Notes: a model not told the origin generated them from the sequence alone. A DNA stretch of 64,000 bases from Methanospirillum stamsii (GCF_003173335.1 NZ_QGMZ01000014.1:124001-188000), one strand, 5' to 3'; shown: positions 48,264-64,000, counted from the first letter of the stretch. Numbers and translations: made by a program.

Positions 48264-48533
48264 TTATTTAGAGTAAATATTTTCCCGCTTGCCGATTTCG
48301 ATAACGATGATGATGAGTTTGTCATCTTCGAAAGTAAGAAACGCTCGATAGTCTCCGATCCGGTATCGATATGTCGGAACGTCTGGTATTCCTTCAACTT
48401 TCCGGAGATATTTTCTGGGATTGTTTACCTTTTCAAGCCACTTTATTTTATCTCGAATTCTGATGGCTACATCCCGCTGAAGCCGTTTTAGATTTAATTC
48501 CGCTTCATCGGAAAAAAAGACGCGGTAATGCAA
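48264..48533 (-). CDS. RelE/ParE-family toxin
   Basis: An 89-aa RelE-superfamily toxin. The pattern is typical: YRVFFSDEAELNLKRL at the start, a YRYRIGDYRAFLTF strand pair near 55-70, and a C-terminal I-x-VIEIGKRENIY. Such toxins cleave mRNA at the ribosome or poison gyrase; the RelE pattern is favoured. It begins with TTG immediately after the antitoxin stop codon. The pair is intact, unlike its neighbours. Confidence 0.9.
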   Translation of the reverse strand: MHYRVFFSDEAELNLKRLQRDVAIRIRDKIKWLEKVNNPRKYLRKVEGIPDVPTYRYRIGDYRAFLTFEDDKLIIIVIEIGKRENIYSK

Positions 48534-48815
48534 TCAGATCCCCATTTCTTTGGAAATTACATCCAGAGAACGGTATCTTCCATGTTTCATATCTTCGAGT
48601 CCCCTGCGAATCCCTTCCATAGTCCTTTCATCAATAGGTTCTTCCAGTTCGTTCGCTTGTTCCATGAGTTCAGCGATGATTTCCGCTTCTGTCGGGTCGA
48701 TAGCACTTATTAGGCATTTATGAAGGACTTCACTATCAGATGATGCATCGTCACGAGCTTTCAGTATTTGAACAAGCTTGTAATCTGATTCGCTCAGGGA
48801 TACGGTGACGGTCAT
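48534..48815 (-). CDS. Antitoxin partner of the RelE-family toxin
   Basis: A 93-aa protein with an N-terminal ribbon-helix-helix-like segment (MTVTVSLSESDYKLVQ) and an acidic helical C-terminal half (GLEDMKHGRYRSLDVI) that would wrap the toxin. It directly precedes the toxin, with no gap, as expected for a type II toxin-antitoxin operon in which the antitoxin also represses transcription. Confidence 0.82.
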   Translation of the reverse strand: MTVTVSLSESDYKLVQILKARDDASSDSEVLHKCLISAIDPTEAEIIAELMEQANELEEPIDERTMEGIRRGLEDMKHGRYRSLDVISKEMGI

Positions 48816-48880
48816 AATAATTTATTATCCCCAATGTATCATATAGTCTCTATCAGTTTTCAGTAAAAGTTGGATAAGAT

Positions 48881-49341
48881 TTATCGTATTTTTTGTGATA
48901 TTTCATTAATATGAGTAATCGTTTCTATCATGTCAGGAAGTGCATCTCCGAAGTATTTTTCTTCATCCAGATGAGTAACCGTTTTAAAATGACAATGCAA
49001 TCGTGTTTCGTATTCTTGGAAAAATCCCGACCTTTCTGGTTTGAGGCCTTGCTCAGGAGATTGATGGCCATGTATTGATCTCCCTTCGTGAGATCCTGAC
49101 ATTCTATCTCAATCAGCTTATTCTTTCTCCATCCGAGTTAGGTGGAACCGAGTTTAAGCTACCGGGCCTTCGAAAAATGATACCGTGTAGTTATTTTTGC
49201 AAGGTATTGAACAATAAGAGAATACTCGGACTTTGTGATTGCGCCCGTTATTACGGTCTTTTCCAGTACGGTTGATTCCTTCCGGGAATAAAAGCCCGAA
49301 ATTGACCTGAACTCTAATATGTTCGTCAGTGCATTAAACAT
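48881..49341 (-). pseudogene. Frameshifted gene remnant
   Basis: Coding-like sequence runs across this region on the minus strand but in changing frames. A start MFNALTNILEF (49341) runs 60 codons to a TAG. A middle stretch in a second frame reads NKLIEIECQDLTKGDQY and MAINLLSKA. A final frame reads FFQEYETRLHCHF through EKYFGDALPD to the end at 48881. The three parts look like one protein broken by two frameshifts and a stop. The family is unknown. Confidence 0.5.
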
Positions 49342-49433
49342 ACTCGTCTAATGCTCTATTATTCCTCTTTTCAATCATCCGGATGATGAGGTCTTTGATG
49401 AGGTATTTTTCCTCATTAACAAGGATGAATCCT

Positions 49434-49646
49434 ATGCCAGTACATGAACTCATGCCTCACATCCATTCTGAAAGTGCCCAGGAATTAGTTGGAATATTGA
49501 ATGTTCTCGCCAATAGCTGAGATATTTCTGTTATTGAAAAAAATTCTCATCCAAAAGAGCATCCGGATAATGATATCAGAGAAACCGTAGAATGGGCGAT
49601 AAATTTAATTATTAAATCACAAAACGAAAAATCTATAACGATATGA
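49434..49646 (+). pseudogene. Small ORF with in-frame TGA
   Basis: From ATG 49434 (or 49425) the frame reads MPVHELMPHIHSES and NVLANS, then a TGA at 49518-49520, then continues in the same frame DISVIEKNSHPKEHPD and ETVEWAINLI to TGA at 49644. Both halves look like one helical protein of about 70 residues. Nonsense mutation is the simplest reading given the decayed surroundings. Confidence 0.45.
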
Positions 49647-49757
49647 CCTGATTGTAGAGATAGAAAATATAAATGCTCTCCATTTTTCTATTGGTCCGTA
49701 GTAAGAGTATATTGGACAAAGAATTCTTTTGTTACTATTATTGATTCTGTCGGATTA

Positions 49758-49976
49758 TTATTCAAGATCTTCTCTTGAGATTCCAGCCTGCTTTAGGATT
49801 TCTAAAAGGGTTCCTTTCGGGATCTCACGTCAAGGGTGAACTGCAACAATGACCATGCGGCCGGAATCATGATGAATAAATATGTGGTGACTCCCCTTTA
49901 GACCGGTCTAACCTGATTCCTGCATGATAGAAATGCTGATGATTTGTTTAGGGGTGAGACGTGGCAATTTGCTCAT
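49758..49976 (-). pseudogene. hicA toxin gene with two in-frame stops
   Basis: The frame reads a HicA mRNA interferase: MSKLPRLTPKQII at the start, SHHIFIHHD with the catalytic His region, and EIPKGTLLEILKQAGI at the end, the family's hallmark. A TAG at 49908-49910 and a TGA at 49830-49832 (in place of the Gly usually found before RE-IPKGT) stop translation. The gene overlaps hicB by 29 bp. Confidence 0.85.
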
Positions 49977-50202
49977 TTTCAGAGATTGTTAATAGATATT
50001 CAAGGACATTTCTTTCAGATGGTATTTCCTCCCCATGAGCGGTTAGGCTTTCAAGATATAACTCAATAGCCTCTTTGGCATTTCCTATAGCCTCATCAAG
50101 AGTATCTCCCCATGTTACACAGCCTGGAAGGAGTGGGACAGTTACCGTGAATCCCCCTTCCGGTTCTCTCCTAAGGAGTATCCGATATTGAATCTGATTC
50201 AT
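49948..50202 (-). CDS. hicB: HicB-family antitoxin
   Basis: An 84-aa HicB protein with the partial RNase-H-like fold: YRILLRREPEGGFTVTVP, then LPGCVTWGDTLDEAIGNAKEAI, the family signature. It lies upstream of and overlaps hicA. No C-terminal DNA-binding domain is present. With its toxin disabled, it may be a leftover or may protect against HicA toxins encoded elsewhere. Confidence 0.92.
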   Translation of the reverse strand: MNQIQYRILLRREPEGGFTVTVPLLPGCVTWGDTLDEAIGNAKEAIELYLESLTAHGEEIPSERNVLEYLLTISENEQIATSHP

Positions 50203-52575: not shown

Positions 52576-52914
52576 GTGGGAAAGTTTGCGGTTTTTCGTG
52601 AGCGTTCGTCCCGTTCCCTGGAGAAGGTCGGCCGGTTTCGGATTGAAGGGGAGAATATTGTGAGATACTTGGATGGTATGGGAACGTATCAGGTGAGGAG
52701 ATCCTGGGAGATCCTGGTTCTTCTCCGGTTAGGGGATGAGGTGATCCGGGACCTGGATGGGGGAACAGTCGGGATGATGAGCCTGTCCGGGAGTGGAAAG
52801 GGAGTGAAGATGGTGATCCAGGAGCGGTTGTATGTTGCTCCGGGCCGGAGGGTGAAGCAGGTACTGGAGGGGAAGGAGAAGAAAGGGGCGGTGTTTGGGG
52901 TAAAATTGATGTGA
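52576..52914 (+). CDS. Hypothetical protein, 112 aa, with strong ribosome-binding site
   Basis: A GTG-started gene preceded by GGAGGT at 52565-52570, a near-perfect Shine-Dalgarno at 5-nt spacing. The protein is beta-rich and basic in its second half (YVAPGRRVKQVLEGKEKKG). It follows the Cys-rich copy B by 33 bp and shares its GC-rich composition, in contrast with the AT-rich defence operon that converges on it. No recognised family. It may be a partner of the Cys-rich protein in a mobile or variable element. Confidence 0.65.
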   Translation: MGKFAVFRERSSRSLEKVGRFRIEGENIVRYLDGMGTYQVRRSWEILVLLRLGDEVIRDLDGGTVGMMSLSGSGKGVKMVIQERLYVAPGRRVKQVLEGKEKKGAVFGVKLM

Positions 52915-52923
52915 TATTTTTAC

Positions 52924-53658
52924 TTAGCTTTTGAATGAAACAACAATCCTACCCGATCCTGATGAATGAGTTGTAAAAAATTCACTCCGGGCAATGTCAT
53001 CCATCGTGATGGAGAAAGAGAAAGGAAATGCTATCAGTAAATCAATAATCTTAGAAATTTCTACAGGATTACTATTTGCTTTGATAAGAGTTGCTAATAG
53101 CCACAATTGGAGTTCCCTATTATTGCTGGATAGCAGATTTTCTTTCGAGTACTTGTATTTTTTTCTCTGTAAGAGATTCCATTCGAATAATGTCAATGGA
53201 ACAAGACAAGTTTGTTTTTGAACACAAGAACGTTCACCCCATGTGTTTTTTAATTCATTATATATCATCGGTGAACTTACTTCGTCATAAAACCCTAATT
53301 TGGTTGAGAGAATTCTCACTATATCACATACAAAGGGATAAGCAAGAATTAACAGTCCATAATGAAGCCATATACGGTCTTTAGTTCGGATATTTTTTAA
53401 TAAATTACATGCATAATCCCTCAATTGTTTATCATCATCTGGGACTCTAATCCATATACGAAGTAATATTGTTATGATTTTTTTTCTACCTGCCTCATTT
53501 GGATATTTTTCTGAAAGAAACTCATGAAGAAATTTTCGGGTTAGATCTAGGTCCTTTGTTTTGCAGTAATGATCTGCTGTAAGATCAATCAAATCATGTG
53601 GGATTTTTCGATCATATCCAATCTGTTTTTTCTTCACATTCTCACCGAAGGATTTCAA
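52924..53658 (-). CDS. Helical protein at the end of the defence operon
   Basis: A 244-aa, mostly alpha-helical cytoplasmic protein with a central hydrophobic helix region (HYGLLILAYPFVCDIV near residue 100) and a winged-helix-like end. It overlaps pglZ by 17 bp and is the last gene of the operon. In type 3 BREX the last gene after pglZ is brxA (DUF1819); this protein's length, position and helical pattern are compatible with that, but I cannot confirm homology. Unassigned otherwise. Confidence 0.7.
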   Translation of the reverse strand: MKSFGENVKKKQIGYDRKIPHDLIDLTADHYCKTKDLDLTRKFLHEFLSEKYPNEAGRKKIITILLRIWIRVPDDDKQLRDYACNLLKNIRTKDRIWLHYGLLILAYPFVCDIVRILSTKLGFYDEVSSPMIYNELKNTWGERSCVQKQTCLVPLTLFEWNLLQRKKYKYSKENLLSSNNRELQLWLLATLIKANSNPVEISKIIDLLIAFPFSFSITMDDIARSEFFTTHSSGSGRIVVSFKS

Positions 53659-55579
53659 TAAACGGAACTAATACTTCTTCAATAGAAATACCGCCATGAC
53701 AAAGAGAGGAATGATTTTTTTTATCATATGACCTGGTTCCCGACATTAACAAAGGAAATAAAAAATTGTTGAAATTTGATGATGGCCAAATAATTTGTTC
53801 ATCTAATTTACTCAGTCCTCTTGATTGGAATGCCTTGTCTTTAAATATTTTAGCCCGCTTACTATTTTCTGTTAATAATTCACCTTCATTATAATCTCCA
53901 ATCCCTTGGGCTAAAATATGACCATGATCTGATGTGATAAAGATATTAAAGCCTCTATCTTGCAGGGTGTTAAAAAATTGAGAGACAAATCCTTGATCTA
54001 ACCATTCACGAATTTTCTTTGGCATAAGAGTGTATGAAAAATTTTCTTCATGAATGAACTCGTCAATGGTATTAATTACTAATCCAACAATGTCAGATTG
54101 ATAAATCTCTTGAATTTTTGATTGATCAGTAATATCTTTTAAACGAATTCCTGTGAAATGAGAAATCCTTGTTCCTCTCGGTTCAGATGAGGACCAATAA
54201 TTGATCCATAAATTTCTCTCTTTACTTTGTGTAATATCATTTATAGAATTTGATTGATGATCACTATTCTCAAATAGATAAAATGGAGGAACTCCAGAGA
54301 AAATACTTTTTCTTGATATCGATGTTAATGTGGGTATATGGGCGAATACTGGAATAATTTTAGGGTTATCATTTTTTAAAATTTCTTTTTGAATTAGTTC
54401 CCATTCATAATATGCTAATCCATCTATTACAATCAGAGCGATTTTGTCACCATTCTTCCGTTTTGATTTAATATATGGAAGAATATGATGAACCATAACT
54501 GGTTCAGGAAGATATGGGGCATTAAGGATTAATGGGTATGATTTTTGAATCCAATGGAGAAATAATTCTTCAACATTTGATTGGACAGCATTAAATTTCT
54601 CAATGTGTTTTTGATTTTGAACCTTCATTCTTAAATTTAGAATGTCAGCCCATATAGAGCAAATTTTTTGCCAATCAGAATAATGGTTTGCAATATTTGC
54701 CAATGATACAGTCCGATGTAAAAGGTCAAGAAATCTGTTCTCTAATGTTTCAGCTGAATCATGAGCAACACCGATTCTTAATCGTGGTGGAAGATTCTCG
54801 ATCGATTGGGATGAAACAGGTCTTATTATCCCTTCAATAATCATCGAATCTAAATATACCCATATTTCTGTTTTTTCAAGAAATATTTTAGGTCTTTCAC
54901 CATTAATAACCGAATCAAGATATTGATTCCATAGAACCTGCAAATGATCAATAAAAGAAGAATAATCAAATATGTCTATGCCATCAACTTCTGAAAATTT
55001 TTTAGTCTCTAATTTTTGAAGTATATATTCTGAATAATCTGAAGGAAGATATATCCGTTTATAATGAATTCTTATAAGATTTTCAAAGAGATCTTCAATT
55101 GTATTAATCGCATCAATGTTTATCGAAAAGACTAGCCGAAGAATTAATTCTGTTGTTTCATTAGAACCAAGTCTTTTTTGGGGTAGAAATGTCTGATATG
55201 ATTCGTAAAATTGTTCAAGTAATGATACATCTAAATTTTTTACTACTGGAGTGGACAATTTATCGAAAATACTAGCTAATCCTACCTCATATGTTTCTGC
55301 ATGAATGAAGATATCATACGGAATTTCAGGTATGGGAATTTCTATTCTGACAATAAAGTGGAAGGAATGATCAGAATTATAGAGATTTGGGCGAATTTCT
55401 GATTCATACCAAAGTCTAAATGAAAATGGATCAAAAAATTGAAAAAATTGATAATTCAGTGAAATTATCTCCCTTTGAATCGATTCAACGAGGAGTAATT
55501 GGTCTGGATCATATACAAAAATAAACCTATGGCGTGAGTACTTTATTTTTTCTAATACTGCATCAGGTAATGATTTCAT
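53642..55579 (-). CDS. pglZ: PglZ-domain protein
   Basis: A 645-aa protein with a C-terminal PglZ domain of the alkaline-phosphatase superfamily. Core motifs are ALIVIDGLAYYEW near residue 383, the Thr/Ser-containing ISRKSIFSG near 425, and ITSDHGHILAQG near 550, with a late HGGIS. The N-terminal ~350 residues are helical with a Rossmann-like start (FIFVYDPDQLL). PglZ proteins are the common component of all BREX phage-defence systems, of unknown hydrolytic substrate. It overlaps the helicase gene by 4 bp. Confidence 0.9.
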   Translation of the reverse strand: MKSLPDAVLEKIKYSRHRFIFVYDPDQLLLVESIQREIISLNYQFFQFFDPFSFRLWYESEIRPNLYNSDHSFHFIVRIEIPIPEIPYDIFIHAETYEVGLASIFDKLSTPVVKNLDVSLLEQFYESYQTFLPQKRLGSNETTELILRLVFSINIDAINTIEDLFENLIRIHYKRIYLPSDYSEYILQKLETKKFSEVDGIDIFDYSSFIDHLQVLWNQYLDSVINGERPKIFLEKTEIWVYLDSMIIEGIIRPVSSQSIENLPPRLRIGVAHDSAETLENRFLDLLHRTVSLANIANHYSDWQKICSIWADILNLRMKVQNQKHIEKFNAVQSNVEELFLHWIQKSYPLILNAPYLPEPVMVHHILPYIKSKRKNGDKIALIVIDGLAYYEWELIQKEILKNDNPKIIPVFAHIPTLTSISRKSIFSGVPPFYLFENSDHQSNSINDITQSKERNLWINYWSSSEPRGTRISHFTGIRLKDITDQSKIQEIYQSDIVGLVINTIDEFIHEENFSYTLMPKKIREWLDQGFVSQFFNTLQDRGFNIFITSDHGHILAQGIGDYNEGELLTENSKRAKIFKDKAFQSRGLSKLDEQIIWPSSNFNNFLFPLLMSGTRSYDKKNHSSLCHGGISIEEVLVPFIEILR

Positions 55580-58143
55580 GCAGTGTCTCCAACTGCAAGT
55601 AACAATACTGGATACTTTTCAGAAGTACTATCTACATTATTTGAACAGAATTGTTCAACTGAATTCATCAGGTTTAAATAAATTGCCTCTTTAAACTGCG
55701 TCATCCCAGATATCTGAAATGTTCCTCTTCCCAGGATCTCCCATATTTTGAATGCTGTTGTTTGAAAAAGCCTATTTTGATAATCGAGGAATATGGGCAA
55801 TACCTGAATATTTCCGGATGAATTTCTCAAATGATATAAACCGAAAGTCCCTTTTACCGATCCTATTCCTTCTAATTGAATTATTGGGATATCACAGGTT
55901 TCTGTTACTCTTACAATTTCGGACAGGATTTTCTGGATTTGAGGGGTTTTTAAAGTTGCCAATTGTGAATGAGGATCTTGTGCCTCGTCAAAATCAAAAA
56001 CTAAGTTATAATTTTTTGATCCATCTGGCCAAAGAACCTGATATCCAAATAGGTCTGATCCTATCTTCCCTCCGGATAATGGGACAAGGTTGTGAACCAT
56101 TTGAGAAAGCCAATACGGAAGAGGATGGTGCATTAAATCATAAGCCTGTTCTGGGGAAAGTTCTTGATCACTGATAATCACATCCCAGTATCCCCGTTCT
56201 TGGTTGGCCCTACTTTTTATAATATTAAGTAGCCGGTCAATTTTCTGTTGTAATTCACCGGGATTTAACAGCGCATTTATATAAAGATCATCAAAATTCT
56301 GTTCTGCTTCTGATGAATCAAGAATATCTGATAATTTATCAAATCCAAGTTCTTGTAAAATAATCCAGAGTTTTTTGTTTAAGACTTCCCAAACCCGCTC
56401 ATCAACAGTATCCTTGTATACTAAGTTATATACTTCAACATCGCGATTCTGACCAATCCTATCCACACGGCCGATTCTCTGTTCAACTCTCATCGGGTTC
56501 CAGGGAAGATCATAATTAATTACTATATGACAGAATTGCAGGTTGAGTCCTTCTCCTCCGGCCTCAGTGGAAATGAGGATCTGTATTTTTTCAGAAAAGA
56601 GACGTAGTGATATCTGTCGTTCCTCAATATCCATACTCCCATTAAGACAGATTACTGAAAATCCTCGTTTCTCTAAGTACTCTTTCAGCATCATTTGGGT
56701 TGCTACAAACTCAGTGAAAATAAGAAATTTAACCCTGGAATCAGATTCCCGGGAAATAATCTCTCTTAAGATAGCTTCTAAGGATTCAGCCCTGATGTCT
56801 GGTCCTGTCCGGGTGCAACGTTCAGCGATGGCTAAAATCTTTTGAATCTGTTCATATTCTTCGGTAAGAGGAGAGGGAGAAGTTTGAAGTAGATATTCAA
56901 GTAATTCCTGGGTATCGGTCTCAAGCATTTGTTCCAAATCTTTTGGAGAATAAGAGCACGATACTAATGATGATTCAACGACTAATGAGCGACGACGCAT
57001 TGTCTCTAAAATTGCTTGAGTGCTTGAAGAAACGAGCCTCTGCATAAGAACCATGAGAAATCCGATTCCGGTTCTTTTTTCTCGTTTTGCATAGTCGTAC
57101 CAGTATTTTACGTAAAAGGTTACGGCATTATACAACTCATGCTGGAGGGGCGATTCCTTGAGAGAGACAGCAATTGTTTGGGCGTGTCGTTTTCTGAATA
57201 ATTGCTTCCCTTCTGCATCTATTGCATTTCGTTTTTCAGTCCGAATAACGTATTCTGATACGACTTCTCGTTCTACTTCCTGAGCCGATCTGAATCGTTT
57301 CGGATCCAAATGACCCATTAATCGAAGAAAGGCGTCCGTCTTCCCCTGGTGCGGTGTAGCAGATAATAAAAGAAGATGTTCTGTTTTTTCGGTGAGAGTT
57401 TTTGCTAATTTATATCGAGCAACCAGTTCAGATGTCCCTCCCGTTTTATGGGCTTCATCGATGATAACAAGGTCCCAATCAATAGAAGTAACAGCCAAAA
57501 ATCTGGCACGATTATACTGATCACATTCTTCTGGAGTCCATCCTTTTCTTTCTTCTATTGGCTTGATAACATCAATAGAAGTAATAATCTGATTGTACCG
57601 CATCCATGCTTCTGGGGAGGCTTCAGCGGTTTCTCCAGGAATTACAATAGTAAAATCCTCATCAAATTTTTCAGATAGTTCCGATCTCCATTGCCTGATA
57701 AGACCAGCAGGGGCAACGATTAATATCTTTGATATTTTTCCTCTGACCTTTAGTTCCTGCATTATCAGGCCGGCTTCAATTGTTTTTCCAAGACCAACTT
57801 CGTCAGCTAATAGAAATCGAACCCTGGGGGATGCATATGCTCTAGCCAAAGCATATAATTGATGCGGGAGAGGAAGTATTCGTGAAGAGAAAGGTGAAAT
57901 CAATGGTTCTTTTTGAATAATATCCCTTAATTTTTCTGATGCAGAAATTCCAATGATACGCTCCTTCACCCAATAATTGGAAGGGATATCACTCAGGGAA
58001 GTATTCTCTCTGATAGCTACGGTATCAGTCGAAGGAATCCATACCCGGTATTTCCCCTGTTGTATTAGAGATATTATCTGGATGGATTGATGATCATCTG
58101 ATGAGTATAACCATGAGCCCGGAATTATTTTCTCATTTTCCAT
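55576..58143 (-). CDS. SNF2/RapA-type helicase-like ATPase
   Basis: An 855-aa superfamily 2 DNA translocase. Motif I is LADEVGLGKTIEAG near residue 107, motif II IIDEAHK near 227, motif III LLLSATPHQG near 260, and motif VI QRIGRVDRIGQ near 554. The C-terminal third has no recognised domain. Within BREX-like loci this matches the BrxHII type (SNF2, COG0553); DISARM DrmD is a more distant alternative. It overlaps pglZ by 4 bp, implying coupling. Confidence 0.92.
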   Translation of the reverse strand: MENEKIIPGSWLYSSDDHQSIQIISLIQQGKYRVWIPSTDTVAIRENTSLSDIPSNYWVKERIIGISASEKLRDIIQKEPLISPFSSRILPLPHQLYALARAYASPRVRFLLADEVGLGKTIEAGLIMQELKVRGKISKILIVAPAGLIRQWRSELSEKFDEDFTIVIPGETAEASPEAWMRYNQIITSIDVIKPIEERKGWTPEECDQYNRARFLAVTSIDWDLVIIDEAHKTGGTSELVARYKLAKTLTEKTEHLLLLSATPHQGKTDAFLRLMGHLDPKRFRSAQEVEREVVSEYVIRTEKRNAIDAEGKQLFRKRHAQTIAVSLKESPLQHELYNAVTFYVKYWYDYAKREKRTGIGFLMVLMQRLVSSSTQAILETMRRRSLVVESSLVSCSYSPKDLEQMLETDTQELLEYLLQTSPSPLTEEYEQIQKILAIAERCTRTGPDIRAESLEAILREIISRESDSRVKFLIFTEFVATQMMLKEYLEKRGFSVICLNGSMDIEERQISLRLFSEKIQILISTEAGGEGLNLQFCHIVINYDLPWNPMRVEQRIGRVDRIGQNRDVEVYNLVYKDTVDERVWEVLNKKLWIILQELGFDKLSDILDSSEAEQNFDDLYINALLNPGELQQKIDRLLNIIKSRANQERGYWDVIISDQELSPEQAYDLMHHPLPYWLSQMVHNLVPLSGGKIGSDLFGYQVLWPDGSKNYNLVFDFDEAQDPHSQLATLKTPQIQKILSEIVRVTETCDIPIIQLEGIGSVKGTFGLYHLRNSSGNIQVLPIFLDYQNRLFQTTAFKIWEILGRGTFQISGMTQFKEAIYLNLMNSVEQFCSNNVDSTSEKYPVLLLAVGDTA

Positions 58144-58201: not shown

Positions 58202-59464
58202 TTACTCATCATCTATTGAAATTTCAGGTTCTGAAGCTGCATAGATGGTTAATAATAACTCACTATTATCGATGAGGGCATATTTTGGTTCAATTTTTGA
58301 AAGTTTTTTACTTTCTTTTATAATTAATGGAACCCCTTCTCCTCGTTTTTCCATGAAATGCTTTCGACCTGGAACTCCCGGTTCATCTATTGTACATTCT
58401 GAAAGTAATTTAGTAATTAATTCATTTCGAGTAACTTGTCTGAAGGCAAGACCTTCAATAGTCAGGGTATTGGGTAGTGCTCCTGGAGAATAAATCTCTA
58501 AACGGTCACTAAATATGAAAAATCTGATTTTAGATCCTGATATCGAATAATCACGATGAGCAATTGCGTTTACAATGGCTTCAAAAACTGCAATATCACT
58601 AAAACGAGGATAATCTATTCTTTCCGGGACTTTTTTTGCGCTGATATAGTTATTTCTTTTAAAAAAAATTATAGCATCCTGTATCTGGTGATCAAGGGGG
58701 CCAAAGATTCGTTTCGAATCAACCTGATAATTTGAATCCTGATCAACTCCCCTATAACTTACTGCCTCAATGAAAGCCCCGGGGAGGTATTCTTCTGGAT
58801 GATCACTACACATGAGAAGACCAGCAACGGATGCACGAATTATGCCATCTTCATCTTTTGTCAGCAAATTTCTTTTTAATAAAGTCGTCTCCTGATCCCC
58901 TTCAATACCTTGTATGAATCTCTCTAACAGATCGGGTTTCAAGGTTCGTGATTCCGTTCCTGGAACGCTTTGTTCTTCAAAACGGATTACTCTAGCCTGA
59001 CTTCGTTGCTGAAAAAGTCTAGCTAATAAATCTGGTGCCATCTCCCTTTTAGAGCTTCCATGTCGATAAAAATAACCCCCAGGACTTTTATGAACAAAAA
59101 GACTTCGAGGGATATCTACCTTAATTACCGCTCGTTTTATTCCCGTAGAATCTGGGAGTTCCATTCGGTAAACGCGAACAGTTACCGCAGGTTTTATTAC
59201 GTCTGTCGTAATTTCACGGACATAATCCTCAACAAGATTTAATTTGTCAATAGGAATCCCAATAATCTCTCTTGATTTATCATCTACACCCAATACAAGG
59301 ACTGCACCTGATGTATTAGCAATGGCTGCGATCTCATCGGCAAGATCTGATCTTGAAGGTCCAGCAACTTTTTCACCTCTAAATCTGACTTCCTTCAATT
59401 CAAGGGAGTTATCTTCACCAAGAAAAATTTTCCTTTGAAGTTCTTCCTGACTATCAAACATCAT
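58202..59464 (-). CDS. AlbA_2 (Schlafen-like) domain protein
   Basis: A 420-aa protein. The N-terminal AlbA_2 domain (~12-130) has ELKEVRF, IAAIANTSGAVLVLGVDD and FYRHGSSKREM, the usual signature. The C-terminal half matches the COG2865-type region with NAIAHRDYS near 290 and LPNTLTIEGL, a GHKL-like or wHTH-bearing part seen in putative transcriptional regulators. Related Schlafen proteins cleave tRNA and appear in antiviral systems. ATG 59464 or 59461 follows AGGTGG; the GTG at 59470 is less likely. It overlaps the upstream ATPase gene. Confidence 0.87.
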   Translation of the reverse strand: MMFDSQEELQRKIFLGEDNSLELKEVRFRGEKVAGPSRSDLADEIAAIANTSGAVLVLGVDDKSREIIGIPIDKLNLVEDYVREITTDVIKPAVTVRVYRMELPDSTGIKRAVIKVDIPRSLFVHKSPGGYFYRHGSSKREMAPDLLARLFQQRSQARVIRFEEQSVPGTESRTLKPDLLERFIQGIEGDQETTLLKRNLLTKDEDGIIRASVAGLLMCSDHPEEYLPGAFIEAVSYRGVDQDSNYQVDSKRIFGPLDHQIQDAIIFFKRNNYISAKKVPERIDYPRFSDIAVFEAIVNAIAHRDYSISGSKIRFFIFSDRLEIYSPGALPNTLTIEGLAFRQVTRNELITKLLSECTIDEPGVPGRKHFMEKRGEGVPLIIKESKKLSKIEPKYALIDNSELLLTIYAASEPEISIDDE

Positions 59465-62270
59465 GGCCACCTGCAGTTAATCGCTTATACCTTTTTTCAA
59501 GAGCTTCATTTCCACCTTCCATTATGGTGCAAATATCATCCCTTACTTTTTGATTTTGCAGACTATCTTTGCAGGAAGGAATTGTCAGGCCACTGGTATT
59601 GATTTTCAAAGCAATAACTAATTCTGCATCGCCATTTACAACAATGTTTGGATTATGTGTGACGATTATTATCTGTCTGTTGGTTTTCTTCTCTTTAATT
59701 TGTGAAACGATAAGCGTGTATATTAATTGATTATCCAAATCATCTTCGGGTTGGTCAAGGATAAGGGGTTCATTTCCATACGATAAGAAAAAAGCAAGAA
59801 GCGCTGCAGTCATCTGTCCTGGTGAACCCTTTTTTATTGATCGAAAACTTTCCCGTGTGCTTGTTCGATATTCTATTTCTATTCCATCTTCAGGGAACCA
59901 GCAATCAAGCCTATCAATCAGCTCTGGAGATACTTTTTGAAGTCGCTTTTGAAAAGATAATCCAAATGACTTCGTATCATTCCCATTATATATCAACCGG
60001 ATATCATTTTTGATTCGTTCTAATCCCTGTAAAACATGGTTTTCCAGATCATCGGAATCACAATTTCTGTGATTATGAGGATACAGATCTTTGAATAGGC
60101 CTGTATTATCCTCAATGGAACCAATATCTTTTTCAAATTTTTCTGGTTCAATTCCAAGAACTTCCCTGAAATTTGCTTCAGCATTCTTTCTATCATTATA
60201 TGGAGATATTATGATTCGGACAACAGGATTATTACCCAATATCTCATTCGCAAAAATTATTCTCTGCTGAGTAAGTTTTTTTCTGAGTGTATAATAATTA
60301 TTAAGACAGGATTTCGCCTCTTTTTCTACATTACTGTATGTTTTTTTTCTTGTTGAAATATCCAGGAGTGATTGTTCAAGATAATATTTCTTCTGTATGA
60401 GAGAACCGTAGTCAGAAGGATTAATTACACCTGAATCTGCCATATTGGAGATCAATTGATGATATTTTTTCTCATCTTCGGCAATTTCTGCGATAGATGC
60501 AGATTTTTCTTTACATAGGGTCCAATCTTCCCAAATCGAGTCAATTTCACTTGCATTAGTCTTAATTATATCCGAAATTGTTTCCAATCTTTTTGTAACT
60601 GCAATAATATCTTTTACAAAATCTGGTGGATTATCTTCCAATTCATTAAAATCTGAAGGGAGGATGCGATCGGCTACTTTAAGTAAAATATCTTTGTTAT
60701 TTTGCCAGGATTCTTCCCAATTAGATAATTCACGGCGAATCCTTTGTCCTTGCTGATATTTTTTTAATATATCTGCATATCCAGATGTTTCAAATATTTC
60801 TATTCTCTTCGTGATATCATCGAGTTCACCTTTAACTTTAGATTCATCCTTTATCTGATTGTAAATTTCCCGAAGAGATGATTGCAAAGAGAGATATCGC
60901 GACTTTTCCTGCTCTATTTTTTCTCTGATCTCGATTATTCCACTATCTGGGGCATTATCAATAATTTCCAGAATGCTTTGTGGATTTTTTGCCATTTCAA
61001 AGATTTGTTTTTGGCTGCAGATTCGAACAGGAAATCGTTCAGGGATAATACCATCAGAGGTTCTCCTTGTCCCATCACCGGTAATTTCCTGAATTGAAGG
61101 TACTGTTCCATCAGGGTTCCATTGAATACAGTACGAATACTGATCTTTATAAAATTGAACGTAAAAATGAGAATTTTGAGTAATTAATCCATCATCATCA
61201 CGAGTTTTGGAGACGGCTGAATATTTTTTTTGTGTCTCGTATATCTCTTCTAATTGTTTAATTTCATCTTCACGCCGTAATGCCAAACGAAGAAATTCAA
61301 TGATACTGGATTTACCAGTACCCCTTCCACCAATGATGGTATTCAAACACGGATTTAATGAAAGGGTAAGTGAAGAACCTCTCCCAATATATTTGGCATC
61401 TTTGATAGTTATTGAATGGATGTAATTCTGGGTATAGTAATTTGGATCTGTTTGGACTGAATCTGACCGTTTTATTGATTCATTACCATCAAGGAGAGCT
61501 AGGCATAACCCCTCAAATGAGGGAGTATTTCCCATCTTTATCCAGGTATAAAAACTTCCCGGGATCCTATCCTCTGGGTTTCCATATGGTATGTGCGAAT
61601 CAGAACATAAAATTTCAGAGAATGAAAATTTATTATCATAATATAATGGAGGTTTTGTGGACTGAAGATCCCTTACCTCAATGGCACGTATATTTTGGTT
61701 ACTCAATTTTTTTACTAAAGATATTCCATCTATAACCTGATTATGTTCAATATAGTGATGAAAAATTCCTTTTGGAGTATCAACGTGGGCTAATATTGCG
61801 ATACCGCCTAAATCTGCTATAGCATTACAAACATCATCAACTGATTTTAATGTTCTTCCATTATGATCACCAATTTGATCATCATAATTGATTTTCCCAA
61901 AGAGTTGATAAATGATCTCACTTCTCTTTTCCGGACTAAAGATTCCCAATAGGTGAATCCCATCTGCGGATATTTCTACTCCAGGGAGAATACATATTTC
62001 TCTAAATTCTGGATTATTTTCATTTTTAAGGGATTGATATGCATCCTGGATTTGAGATATCCATTCACCGGAGTTGTGATCAGTTATGGCAATGCAATCA
62101 ATATCTGCCTGCATATACAGAAGGAGCCATTCTCTAGGAGTAATAGCATTAAATCTTTCTTTATCGGGTCCATTACCATAGTCAAGAGAGGCGGGAGTAT
62201 GAGTATGAAGATCACATCGCCACCATTTTGCCCCGGCCCAGTTTCTGTAATTAACAGAATCTTCCATCAT
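59454..62270 (-). CDS. PHP-domain / SMC-like ATPase fusion (TrlF-like)
   Basis: A 938-aa protein. The N-terminal PHP phosphoesterase (~15-260) has CDLHTHTP (His-22, His-24), AITDHNSG, LAHVDT and CSDSHIPYG metal sites. An ABC/RecF-type ATPase follows, with Walker A GGRGTGKSS near 312, a coiled-coil middle (~450-690), the signature-like GSPGQMTAAL near 800, Walker B LILDQPEDDLDNQ near 830 and IIVTHNPN. PHP domains hydrolyse nucleic-acid phosphodiesters, so ATP-gated nuclease action is plausible. NCBI's TrlF-like group has this layout; the name is from memory. Confidence 0.88.
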   Translation of the reverse strand: MMEDSVNYRNWAGAKWWRCDLHTHTPASLDYGNGPDKERFNAITPREWLLLYMQADIDCIAITDHNSGEWISQIQDAYQSLKNENNPEFREICILPGVEISADGIHLLGIFSPEKRSEIIYQLFGKINYDDQIGDHNGRTLKSVDDVCNAIADLGGIAILAHVDTPKGIFHHYIEHNQVIDGISLVKKLSNQNIRAIEVRDLQSTKPPLYYDNKFSFSEILCSDSHIPYGNPEDRIPGSFYTWIKMGNTPSFEGLCLALLDGNESIKRSDSVQTDPNYYTQNYIHSITIKDAKYIGRGSSLTLSLNPCLNTIIGGRGTGKSSIIEFLRLALRREDEIKQLEEIYETQKKYSAVSKTRDDDGLITQNSHFYVQFYKDQYSYCIQWNPDGTVPSIQEITGDGTRRTSDGIIPERFPVRICSQKQIFEMAKNPQSILEIIDNAPDSGIIEIREKIEQEKSRYLSLQSSLREIYNQIKDESKVKGELDDITKRIEIFETSGYADILKKYQQGQRIRRELSNWEESWQNNKDILLKVADRILPSDFNELEDNPPDFVKDIIAVTKRLETISDIIKTNASEIDSIWEDWTLCKEKSASIAEIAEDEKKYHQLISNMADSGVINPSDYGSLIQKKYYLEQSLLDISTRKKTYSNVEKEAKSCLNNYYTLRKKLTQQRIIFANEILGNNPVVRIIISPYNDRKNAEANFREVLGIEPEKFEKDIGSIEDNTGLFKDLYPHNHRNCDSDDLENHVLQGLERIKNDIRLIYNGNDTKSFGLSFQKRLQKVSPELIDRLDCWFPEDGIEIEYRTSTRESFRSIKKGSPGQMTAALLAFFLSYGNEPLILDQPEDDLDNQLIYTLIVSQIKEKKTNRQIIIVTHNPNIVVNGDAELVIALKINTSGLTIPSCKDSLQNQKVRDDICTIMEGGNEALEKRYKRLTAGGHDV

Positions 62271-62324: not shown

Positions 62325-64000
62325 TCATTCTCCCCCTCTCATTACCGCATTATCGAAGTACATCAATAACTGATCATCTTCCTGGAGAACCTTTGGCGGG
62401 AGTCGTTTTCCAACCGAAACAATAGTCCCGTAATCCCGCTCCTTCCATGCCTTTGCAAATCCGGCCCTGACAGCCTCACTCCTGAAGAGTTTCAATTTTC
62501 CTTTACCCTGAACATACGTTCCAAACTCCCGAAGGAGCGAGCGTTCACGTATTTTTTCAAGGTCAGATGTCTTTGATGGATTTGGAACATACCATTTTCC
62601 CTGGTCATCTTTAAGGAAATTCTCTTCAAGAACATCAGATAATTCTGGAAGAGCCTCATGGGAATCCTGATGTAGTTGCCTTAAAAAGGCTGGCTGAATC
62701 TCCTGATAGGTCTGTGGAGTTGCAAGCTCCTGCCTGAGCCACTGAACCGCACTTCGCTCATCATGGACAAATATCGAAAGTTGTCCCACATCATGTGCCT
62801 GTAATCTCGCTGAATCATACCCCTCAACCTGTTCGGGGAGGAAATACATAGTATCCCGCTCCGGGTATCTCTGGGCAAGACCAGCATAGAATTCGGCAGA
62901 AGAAATAGGCACGGTGATACCACGCTGGACATGGAAGGCGACCATCCGGTCAAACAGAAGATAGTTTTGGCGCTCTGCTATCGTTTCGATGATACCTTCT
63001 TTTTCAACAACCACAGGGAGATGTTTAAGATGTTCATCGATAAATGTCCAGACTCCTTCTTCAGTACCGGCAGTTAAGGTGAATGTTTGTTCGAGAACTG
63101 TAGAGGGTTTGTAGGCGGATATGATAAGATCTTGTTTAACGGCCCCTAAAGTTGATGATTGTTTTATTGTTCCGCTTTTCTTGTCTAAAATTCTAACATC
63201 AGCGATAATAAAACCACTTTTTTGCATTGCTTCCTGTATCGCAATCCACACATTATTTGATGAATTATGAAATTCGATAGTGATCCAACGATTAGGTTTT
63301 AATATAAAAAAATTTTTAGAAAAACAAGATTTCATTAATTCTTTATAGTCGTCAATTGACTTTTCTTGTGTTTTGTTAATTATCGCTTCGGTTTTTTGAT
63401 TAGTAAACACTTTTAGCCAAGATTCCCACAAAAAATTCACTTCGGAATACATTATATTTGCCCCAAATGGAGGATCTGTGAATATATAATCAACAGTATT
63501 CTCGATGATATTTAATTTACTATTAGAGGATGTTTGAATTATCACATCAGAATTTTGTTTTCGACGATGAATATTCAAAATATCTAAAAATTTACTCTGA
63601 AATAATTCTAAAATATTTTGTTCACACATCAATGCAGGTATATATAACGTGCCTAAAAGCGGTCCATTTATTCTCCCATTAGGGTTATGTTCGTTAATTA
63701 CGAATCTATTTCCAATATATCCATTTCGCTGTATAAAACTGGTAAGTATACACTTAATTGAATTTTTTAGGCCTTTATTGTCAATTTTATCTATTTTTGC
63801 TAAAAATGCTGATATTATGAAAAGGTTTCTTTTTGTATAGAAATGATGAACTCTTGTTAAACCTAAATGTGTTCCTTTTCTCCAAATATCTCCCCAATTC
63901 TCTTCTTTGAATAATATAGGAATAGTGGGATGAAAATATGGAATTGAAAGTGAATCTATTTTATTTAGTAATGAAATGTCATTTTCATCAGGTTCCTTAA
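62325..64000 (-). CDS. DNA methyltransferase, COG1743/PglXI-like (partial at right edge)
   Basis: The frame is open to the window edge: codons upstream of 63632 read on without stop (DIWRKGTHLGLTRVHHFYT and HNPNGRINGPLLGTLY), so the internal TTG at 63632 is not the start. The catalytic motif TDPPFGANIMYSE lies near 63470, followed by the family region ITIEFHNSS and LGAVKQDLIISAYKP. The ~260-residue C-terminal part is a separate domain. COG1743-type enzymes are N6-adenine or N4-cytosine methylases and include PglXI of type 3 BREX. The GC content rises sharply in the C-terminal part. Confidence 0.85.
   Translation of the reverse strand, partial: KEPDENDISLLNKIDSLSIPYFHPTIPILFKEENWGDIWRKGTHLGLTRVHHFYTKRNLFIISAFLAKIDKIDNKGLKNSIKCILTSFIQRNGYIGNRFVINEHNPNGRINGPLLGTLYIPALMCEQNILELFQSKFLDILNIHRRKQNSDVIIQTSSNSKLNIIENTVDYIFTDPPFGANIMYSEVNFLWESWLKVFTNQKTEAIINKTQEKSIDDYKELMKSCFSKNFFILKPNRWITIEFHNSSNNVWIAIQEAMQKSGFIIADVRILDKKSGTIKQSSTLGAVKQDLIISAYKPSTVLEQTFTLTAGTEEGVWTFIDEHLKHLPVVVEKEGIIETIAERQNYLLFDRMVAFHVQRGITVPISSAEFYAGLAQRYPERDTMYFLPEQVEGYDSARLQAHDVGQLSIFVHDERSAVQWLRQELATPQTYQEIQPAFLRQLHQDSHEALPELSDVLEENFLKDDQGKWYVPNPSKTSDLEKIRERSLLREFGTYVQGKGKLKLFRSEAVRAGFAKAWKERDYGTIVSVGKRLPPKVLQEDDQLLMYFDNAVMRGGE

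Follow-up and report, generated by a model that had tools for sequence, protein, structure and literature searches.

A TrlF-family PHP-ABC ATPase gene and its Schlafen partner within a BREX type 3 operon of Methanospirillum stamsii

The window analyzed here is a 64,000-nucleotide stretch of the genome of the methanogenic archaeon Methanospirillum stamsii (GCF_003173335.1, NZ_QGMZ01000014.1:124001-188000; G000:C6:124001-188000 in our numbering). At positions 59454-62270, its minus strand carries a gene for a protein that joins a PHP domain to an ABC-type ATPase head of the SMC/Rad50 kind, referred to below as the PHP-ABC protein. The gene overlaps a downstream gene for a Schlafen-like protein, and both lie within an operon of the bacteriophage exclusion (BREX) type 3 system, which was read beyond the window end into neighboring sequence (L007). 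A sequence-only reading of the window had pointed to a PHP nuclease fused to an SMC/RecF-like ATPase inside a methylase-PglZ operon, possibly the killing or restriction arm of that system, and had named profile searches and structure prediction as checks.

The PHP-ABC protein and its Schlafen partner

The PHP-ABC open reading frame (ORF) begins with ATG and encodes 938 residues uninterrupted by stop codons. It is genuine, well beyond chance, because it has a full-length profile match with an E-value of 1e-174 and because the AlphaFold2 model, built on 42 relatives, contains both expected folds at a mean predicted local distance difference test score (pLDDT) of 89.2. The matching profile is NCBIfam NF045780 (TrlF family AAA-like ATPase), against which residues 13-931 align to profile positions 2-943 of 944 with 583.8 bits, the curated cut-off being 350 bits; this whole-protein score places the protein in the TrlF family. 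The score against the Ppl equivalog model NF042955, 555.2 bits, lies under the curated cut-off of 1000 bits, with a Klebsiella Ppl reaching 1325. The PADLOC Ppl model PDLC02208 gives 424.7 bits, and Pfam detects just the ATPase part (PF13304). Rather than a new family, the protein represents a TrlF family member whose sister is Ppl, an antiphage exonuclease. The features of the two genes are as follows.

59454..62270, minus strand: TrlF/Ppl-family PHP-ABC ATPase, 938 residues (NF045780, PADLOC Ppl PDLC02208, AlphaFold2)
61446..62228, minus strand: PHP domain, residues 15-275 (conservation, alignment to solved PHP enzymes, EndoQ match)
60951..61430, minus strand: ABC head N-lobe, residues 281-440 (motifs, AlphaFold2 model, fold matches)
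61308-61331, minus strand: Walker A GGRGTGKS, residues 314-321, within the N-lobe
60231..60938, minus strand: coiled-coil insertion, residues 445-680 (long helices in the AlphaFold2 model)
59475..60230, minus strand: ABC head C-lobe, residues 681-932 (motifs, AlphaFold2 model, fold matches)
59814-59825, minus strand: signature SPGQ, residues 816-819, within the C-lobe
59742-59768, minus strand: Walker B and catalytic acid LILDQPED, residues 836-843, within the C-lobe
58202..59461, minus strand: Schlafen/AlbA_2 and HATPase_c_4 partner, 419 residues from the ATG at 59461 (PF04326, PF13749)

Fold and motif order agree in assigning the N-terminal part to the PHP superfamily. Its motifs (D20-L-H22-T-H24, T63-D64-H65, P96-G97-V98-E99, H106, A161-H162 and S223-D224-S-H226) align one by one with those of the solved enzymes 9etk, RNase AM (7ug9) and TM0559 (2anu). 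Conservation and alignment together nominate H22, H24, D30, H65, E99, H106, H162, D224 and H226 as candidate metal ligands. Across 14 relatives, no variation occurs at H22, H24, D64, H65, E99, H106 or H162; D224 and H226 are retained in at least 90%. In the model, residues 15-275 adopt the PHP fold, with the closest match to EndoQ (Z 20.5, root-mean-square deviation 3.4 over 225 residues), followed by TM0559 (Z 16.8) and RNase AM (Z 16.3).

Residues 281-921 of the model match SMC and Rad50 heads with Z of 16-19, and this part has the split head with a coiled coil, the Walker A, signature and Walker B motifs, the catalytic acid, and an H-loop (TH, residues 871-872) typical of SMC/Rad50-type ABC ATPases. 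Most of the ABC motifs are invariant or nearly so across the 42 relatives. A sequence search of the PDB with the single protein returned no match, while profile searches retrieved the SMC/Rad50 and PHP parts; no solved Ppl structure was reported by these profile searches. Thus, conservation, alignment and the model bear out the claim of the sequence-only reading that all PHP metal motifs and intact Walker A, signature and Walker B motifs are found in one polypeptide. Structure prediction recovered both folds, and the profile search led to a family already named. The fusion of a PHP nuclease to an SMC/Rad50-like ATPase in a defense operon is likewise supported, the TrlF/Ppl family having an experimentally known antiphage member.

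The partner ORF is listed from a GTG at 59470; with the ATG at 59461 as its start, it shares 8 bases with the PHP-ABC gene. Both its fold and an E-E-D triad mark the protein as a predicted Schlafen/AlbA_2 RNase. Its best structural match is 3lmm (Z 22.9), and Schlafen cores, SLFN13 among them (Z 10.0), match with Z of about 10. E16, E21 and D61 correspond to the residues E205, E210 and D248 required for cleavage by rat SLFN13 (PMC5862951). The triad is kept in the paired Schlafen proteins, with a single conservative change of E to D at locus L098.

The pair recurs widely. A scan of 84,980 species genomes, based on profiles and alignments, yielded 319 relatives, the best 80 of which were taken, and the family tree has 84 TrlF/Ppl-family rows. 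In 22 of these rows, the next gene downstream is a Schlafen gene that overlaps or begins no more than 150 bases away. The 22 rows extend over at least eight phyla (Pseudomonadota, Acidobacteriota, Nitrospirota, Bacillota, Chloroflexota, Actinomycetota, Bacteroidota and Tharpellota) as well as archaea. The presence of Schlafen is clustered on the tree, with 10 changes compared with 19.6 upon shuffling. The distances of the two paired proteins correlate in Mantel tests (r 0.87, n=19, and r 0.69 among the 13 nearest pairs; none of 20,000 permutations reached these values). These data support long-term joint travel of the TrlF and Schlafen genes, although correlation alone does not imply a physical complex. 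Within the genus, the pair is also found without BREX, at L015, L019 and L020.

The BREX type 3 operon and its exchangeable slot

The methylase-PglZ operon was recognized correctly by the sequence-only reading, and proves to be BREX type 3. BrxF, BrxC, PglXI, BrxHII, PglZ and BrxA form one operon, with the order BrxF-BrxC-PglXI-PglXI-[TrlF-Schlafen]-BrxHII-PglZ-BrxA, that is, the complete type 3 gene set, in which PglXI occurs twice and into which the PHP-ABC and Schlafen/AlbA_2-HATPase genes are inserted.

62325..64000, minus strand, continuing past the window end (whole gene L007:10326-12935): PglXI_b, second methylase (PADLOC PglXI, 1230 bits)
upstream of PglXI_b, outside the window: PglXI_a, BrxC and BrxF (PADLOC, 1153, 1302 and 83 bits)
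55576..58143, minus strand: BrxHII, SNF2-type helicase (PADLOC PDLC02500, 914 bits)
53642..55579, minus strand: PglZ of BREX type 3 (NF033449, 488 bits, cut-off 250)
52924..53658, minus strand: BrxA (PADLOC PDLC02437, 183 bits)
52576..52914, plus strand: border ORF A, 112 residues, no known family, bracketing the BREX island together with B
G000:C6:195980-196264, upstream of BrxF: border ORF B, short, no known family

The operon was compared with that of a congener (G204:C45, locus L018), in which BrxF, BrxC, PglXI_a, BrxHII, PglZ and BrxA are 97-98% identical to those of the window operon. The slot between methylase and helicase is occupied there by a different TrlF gene, also of 938 residues, without Schlafen; its product is 45% identical to the PHP-ABC protein over 117 residues only and shows some degeneration of the PHP motifs (TDY in place of TDH). 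DNA similarity between the two operons ends at the PglXI_b stop codon and restarts at the BrxHII start. The exchange thus follows gene borders, as judged by blastn breakpoints, which were used in place of an uninformative direct DNA alignment of the two cassettes. PglXI_b itself is 94% identical between the two operons over the first 50 residues, about 28-40% at residues 200-450, and about 99% from residue 650. When the recognition insert is located as in the survey PMC12839542, the predicted recognition region of PglXI_b is diverged between the two operons, along with the cassette. The tandem PglXI genes of the window operon (L007:10326-15520) are 52% identical to each other.

BREX type 3 PglZ was found in 12 of 393 Halobacteriota genomes, and the contents of the slot vary among their operons: it is empty in L111-L113, holds a complete Gabija system in L104 (911/908 bits) and a HEC-01 pair in L105, and contains other ATPase-anchored genes in L107 and L109. 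The Gabija-carrying operon also has a PDC-S68 candidate defense gene (L104:13004-16642, 1237 bits) between two PglXI-like methylases.

TrlF genes are embedded in BREX type 1 operons as well, always between PglX and PglZ, in Gammaproteobacteria (L025), Acidobacteria (L026), Tharpella (L032) and Bacillota (L056, without Schlafen). In restriction-modification loci, the gene lies between type I specificity and restriction genes (L024) or between type III methylase and restriction genes (L039, L045 and L049). A DNA methylase is present within 8 kb in 20 of the 57 loci with enough flank and in none of the 22 control stretches (Fisher p=0.0009; a rough test, the controls being mostly archaeal). Counts were not based on a Pfam PglZ scan of the locus genomes, whose hits were mostly PglZ-domain proteins of other kinds and which all but failed to detect the PglZ of BREX type 1. 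The overall distribution is patchy (7 of 232 genomes of the host's class), relatives are carried on plasmids (468 records), and enterobacterial plasmids frequently have a solo TrlF gene; phage records gave short partial matches only. Two further loci deserve mention. In Hakubella (L080:5338-12938), an HmaA-like helicase gene is followed in a row by TrlF, Schlafen and the beginning of a DUF1156-like methylase gene, which gives the pair a further methylation-linked setting. An E. coli plasmid carries a helicase-N6 methylase-TrlF locus (L117:293-7841), the TrlF gene of which (L117:4986-7841) is the closest relative on an E. coli plasmid. Among 5,426 complete E. coli genomes, 80 have this gene at 99% identity or more, plasmid-borne every time, and it would make a convenient laboratory model.

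Border ORFs A and B belong to small multicopy ORF families of the genus (loci L139-L154). B lies within 20 kb of 28 of the 34 A copies; as a rule some 4 kb separate the two, with a gene for a P-loop protein of about 1000 residues in that interval, or they are directly adjacent. The same bracket surrounds BREX in the congener (G204:C45:21046-39376) and a solo TrlF gene in G201 (G201:C2:252099-256021). This suggests that defense genes took the place of the central gene in a repeated integrated element, and the bracket is possibly an undescribed integrated element that collects defense cargo. Between two A copies, a gene for a 1415-residue PNP-TPR-GreAB-PIN protein was observed. Small genes resembling toxin-antitoxin genes (RelE-like and HicB-like, judged from sequence only) adjoin the island at 48264-50202 on the minus strand.

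Backup module or part of BREX

Our preferred reading, which we hold to be probable, is that the TrlF/Ppl nuclease-ATPase and the overlapping Schlafen gene constitute a two-gene backup defense module, the cargo of a variable slot that separates the methylase from the helicase/PglZ genes of BREX type 3. Because the pair is exchanged in the congener, and because the slot of other operons holds Gabija, other systems or nothing, the most likely role of the pair is that of a mobile backup effector module rather than of BREX's own killing arm. The killing or restriction role put forward in the sequence-only reading is not supported, given the BREX-3 operons lacking the gene, the occurrence of the gene and the pair outside BREX, and the different TrlF gene of the sister operon; the PHP-ABC gene is best read as an auxiliary or backup module. 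Service as a backup to BREX in particular is suggested by position and by the concept of backup effectors set out in PMC12839542.

E. coli Ppl is reported to be a 3'-5' single-stranded DNA exonuclease that is restrained by nucleoside triphosphates (NTPs) at its PHP and NTPase sites and is triggered by nucleotide depletion together with 3'-OH ends (review, PMC12904381). By homology, bound NTPs may hold off the Rad50-like head and the PHP site of the PHP-ABC protein; infection would deplete nucleotides and expose ends, upon which the enzyme would degrade DNA from free 3' ends. The conserved active-site residues of the Schlafen protein point to a second-line RNase, probably tRNA-directed, whose activation may depend on the ATPase. 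Viruses defeating BREX would then still set off DNA decay and translation arrest.

Several observations weigh against the backup module so conceived. The score of 555.2 against a Ppl cut-off of 1000 means that the Ppl mechanism may not transfer, and Ppl works as a single-gene system, without a Schlafen partner. In archaeal BREX-3 slots, TrlF genes were found only in the window genome and G204, that is, in one genus. Furthermore, the window BrxC gene has an in-frame TAA at codon 1074 (L007:16048-16050) where G204 has a sense codon and encodes a protein of 1230 residues. The part beyond the stop still matches the end of the BrxC profile; the stop may be a nonsense mutation or a sequence error, and the BREX core is possibly impaired.

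Among the rival explanations, the strongest is that the pair is an independent defense system that merely shares an island with BREX, so that operon position reflects shared expression and no functional coupling. The pair stands alone at L015, L019 and L020 and in many bacteria, solo TrlF genes abound on enterobacterial plasmids, and we give this explanation a substantial chance, somewhat under even; it is opposed by the placement of the gene between core genes within operons of BREX types 1 and 3 and by the enrichment of methylases nearby. The converse proposal, that the PHP-ABC gene is integral to the operon, with the methylation state set by PglXI_b controlling it and the pair acting as restriction nuclease for that methylase, draws on the recurrent position right after the methylase in BREX types 1 and 3 and between the methylase and nuclease genes of type III restriction-modification systems. 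It also draws on the joint difference of the PglXI_b recognition part and the cassette between two otherwise near-identical operons. This difference reflects a single observed swap, however, and the existence of BREX-3 operons without such a gene (L111-L113) and of slots accepting Gabija or HEC-01 pairs makes the proposal improbable.

AlbA_2-HATPase_c_4 proteins are frequently annotated as regulators. Instead of acting as an RNase effector, the Schlafen-like protein could regulate transcription or hold the PHP-ABC protein in check, and its best full-length structural match, 3lmm, is uncharacterized; the retention of the three acidic residues required by SLFN13 in the paired proteins (save for the E to D change in L098) speaks against this, and we regard it as rather unlikely. 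A housekeeping DNA repair nuclease of the Rad50 or EndoQ kind, present in the operon by chance, would agree with the top fold matches, which are EndoQ and Rad50/SMC heads, but such a role is very improbable given the patchy distribution, plasmid carriage, defense neighbors and a known antiphage relative.

Building on the backup-module reading, we tentatively propose, at a confidence below that given to the module itself, that PHP-ABC and Schlafen form an undescribed two-gene system in which a Rad50-like PHP nuclease would sense DNA ends and license a Schlafen RNase. This system would have been repeatedly built into BREX types 1 and 3 and restriction-modification loci as an exchangeable second tier, the Methanospirillum island riding between the border genes of an uncharacterized integrated element.

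Relation to known systems

OLD/Gabija membership was set aside: no TOPRIM family was detected at E-values up to 0.01, the nuclease domain is PHP, and GajA models match the ATPase parts only, weakly (34 bits, PADLOC). Lamassu, an LmuB SMC protein with an LmuA effector, was also set aside, the neighbors being BREX and Schlafen genes and no Lamassu model being among the PADLOC matches listed. The proposed likeness to the layout of OLD and Gabija effectors is confined to the ATPase part. Gabija/OLD-TOPRIM and PARIS likewise fuse or pair an ABC-type ATPase with a nuclease; here, unlike in those systems, the nuclease is PHP.

Among the closest known systems is the TrlF family, whose cut-off the PHP-ABC protein clears easily and whose plasmid members are up to 41% identical to it over the full length; the family name implies no mechanism, and the plasmid members examined lack a Schlafen partner. 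Ppl, the antiphage PHP-NTPase of Enterobacteriaceae, has the same full-length architecture of PHP domain and Rad50-like ABC head, and a Klebsiella plasmid Ppl falls inside the same supported tree clade. Identity between the two is only about 28%, however, and Ppl is a lone gene, whereas the gene described here has a Schlafen partner and sits in BREX. The partner shares the AlbA_2 fold and the catalytic triad with SLFN13 and prokaryotic AlbA_2 proteins; in place of the doubled Schlafen core, the partner has one AlbA_2 unit with a HATPase-like domain behind it.

No paper naming a TrlF/Ppl-Schlafen pair was found in a literature search that did not cover preprints, and the terms PHP, TrlF and Ppl were not found in the main text of the 2026 BREX survey (PMC12839542). 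While the family is known, PHP-ABC with Schlafen as exchangeable BREX cargo appears undescribed in the literature searched. The recurring pair points to a partnership of a DNA-end-type nuclease with a Schlafen RNase that is conserved across bacteria and archaea. Whether BREX cargo depends on the methylase next to it can be asked of the near-identical operons with different cassettes, which amount to a natural experiment. The closest published concept is that of BREX auxiliary or backup effectors (Rakesh and Krishnan 2026, PMC12839542), a survey that describes extra nucleases in BREX loci, including Schlafen-HATPase and OLD-ABC modules. Compared with the effectors described there, the module reported here combines the Schlafen protein with a PHP nuclease carried by an SMC/Rad50-type head, and would extend the known BREX backup effectors by one of the PHP exonuclease type.

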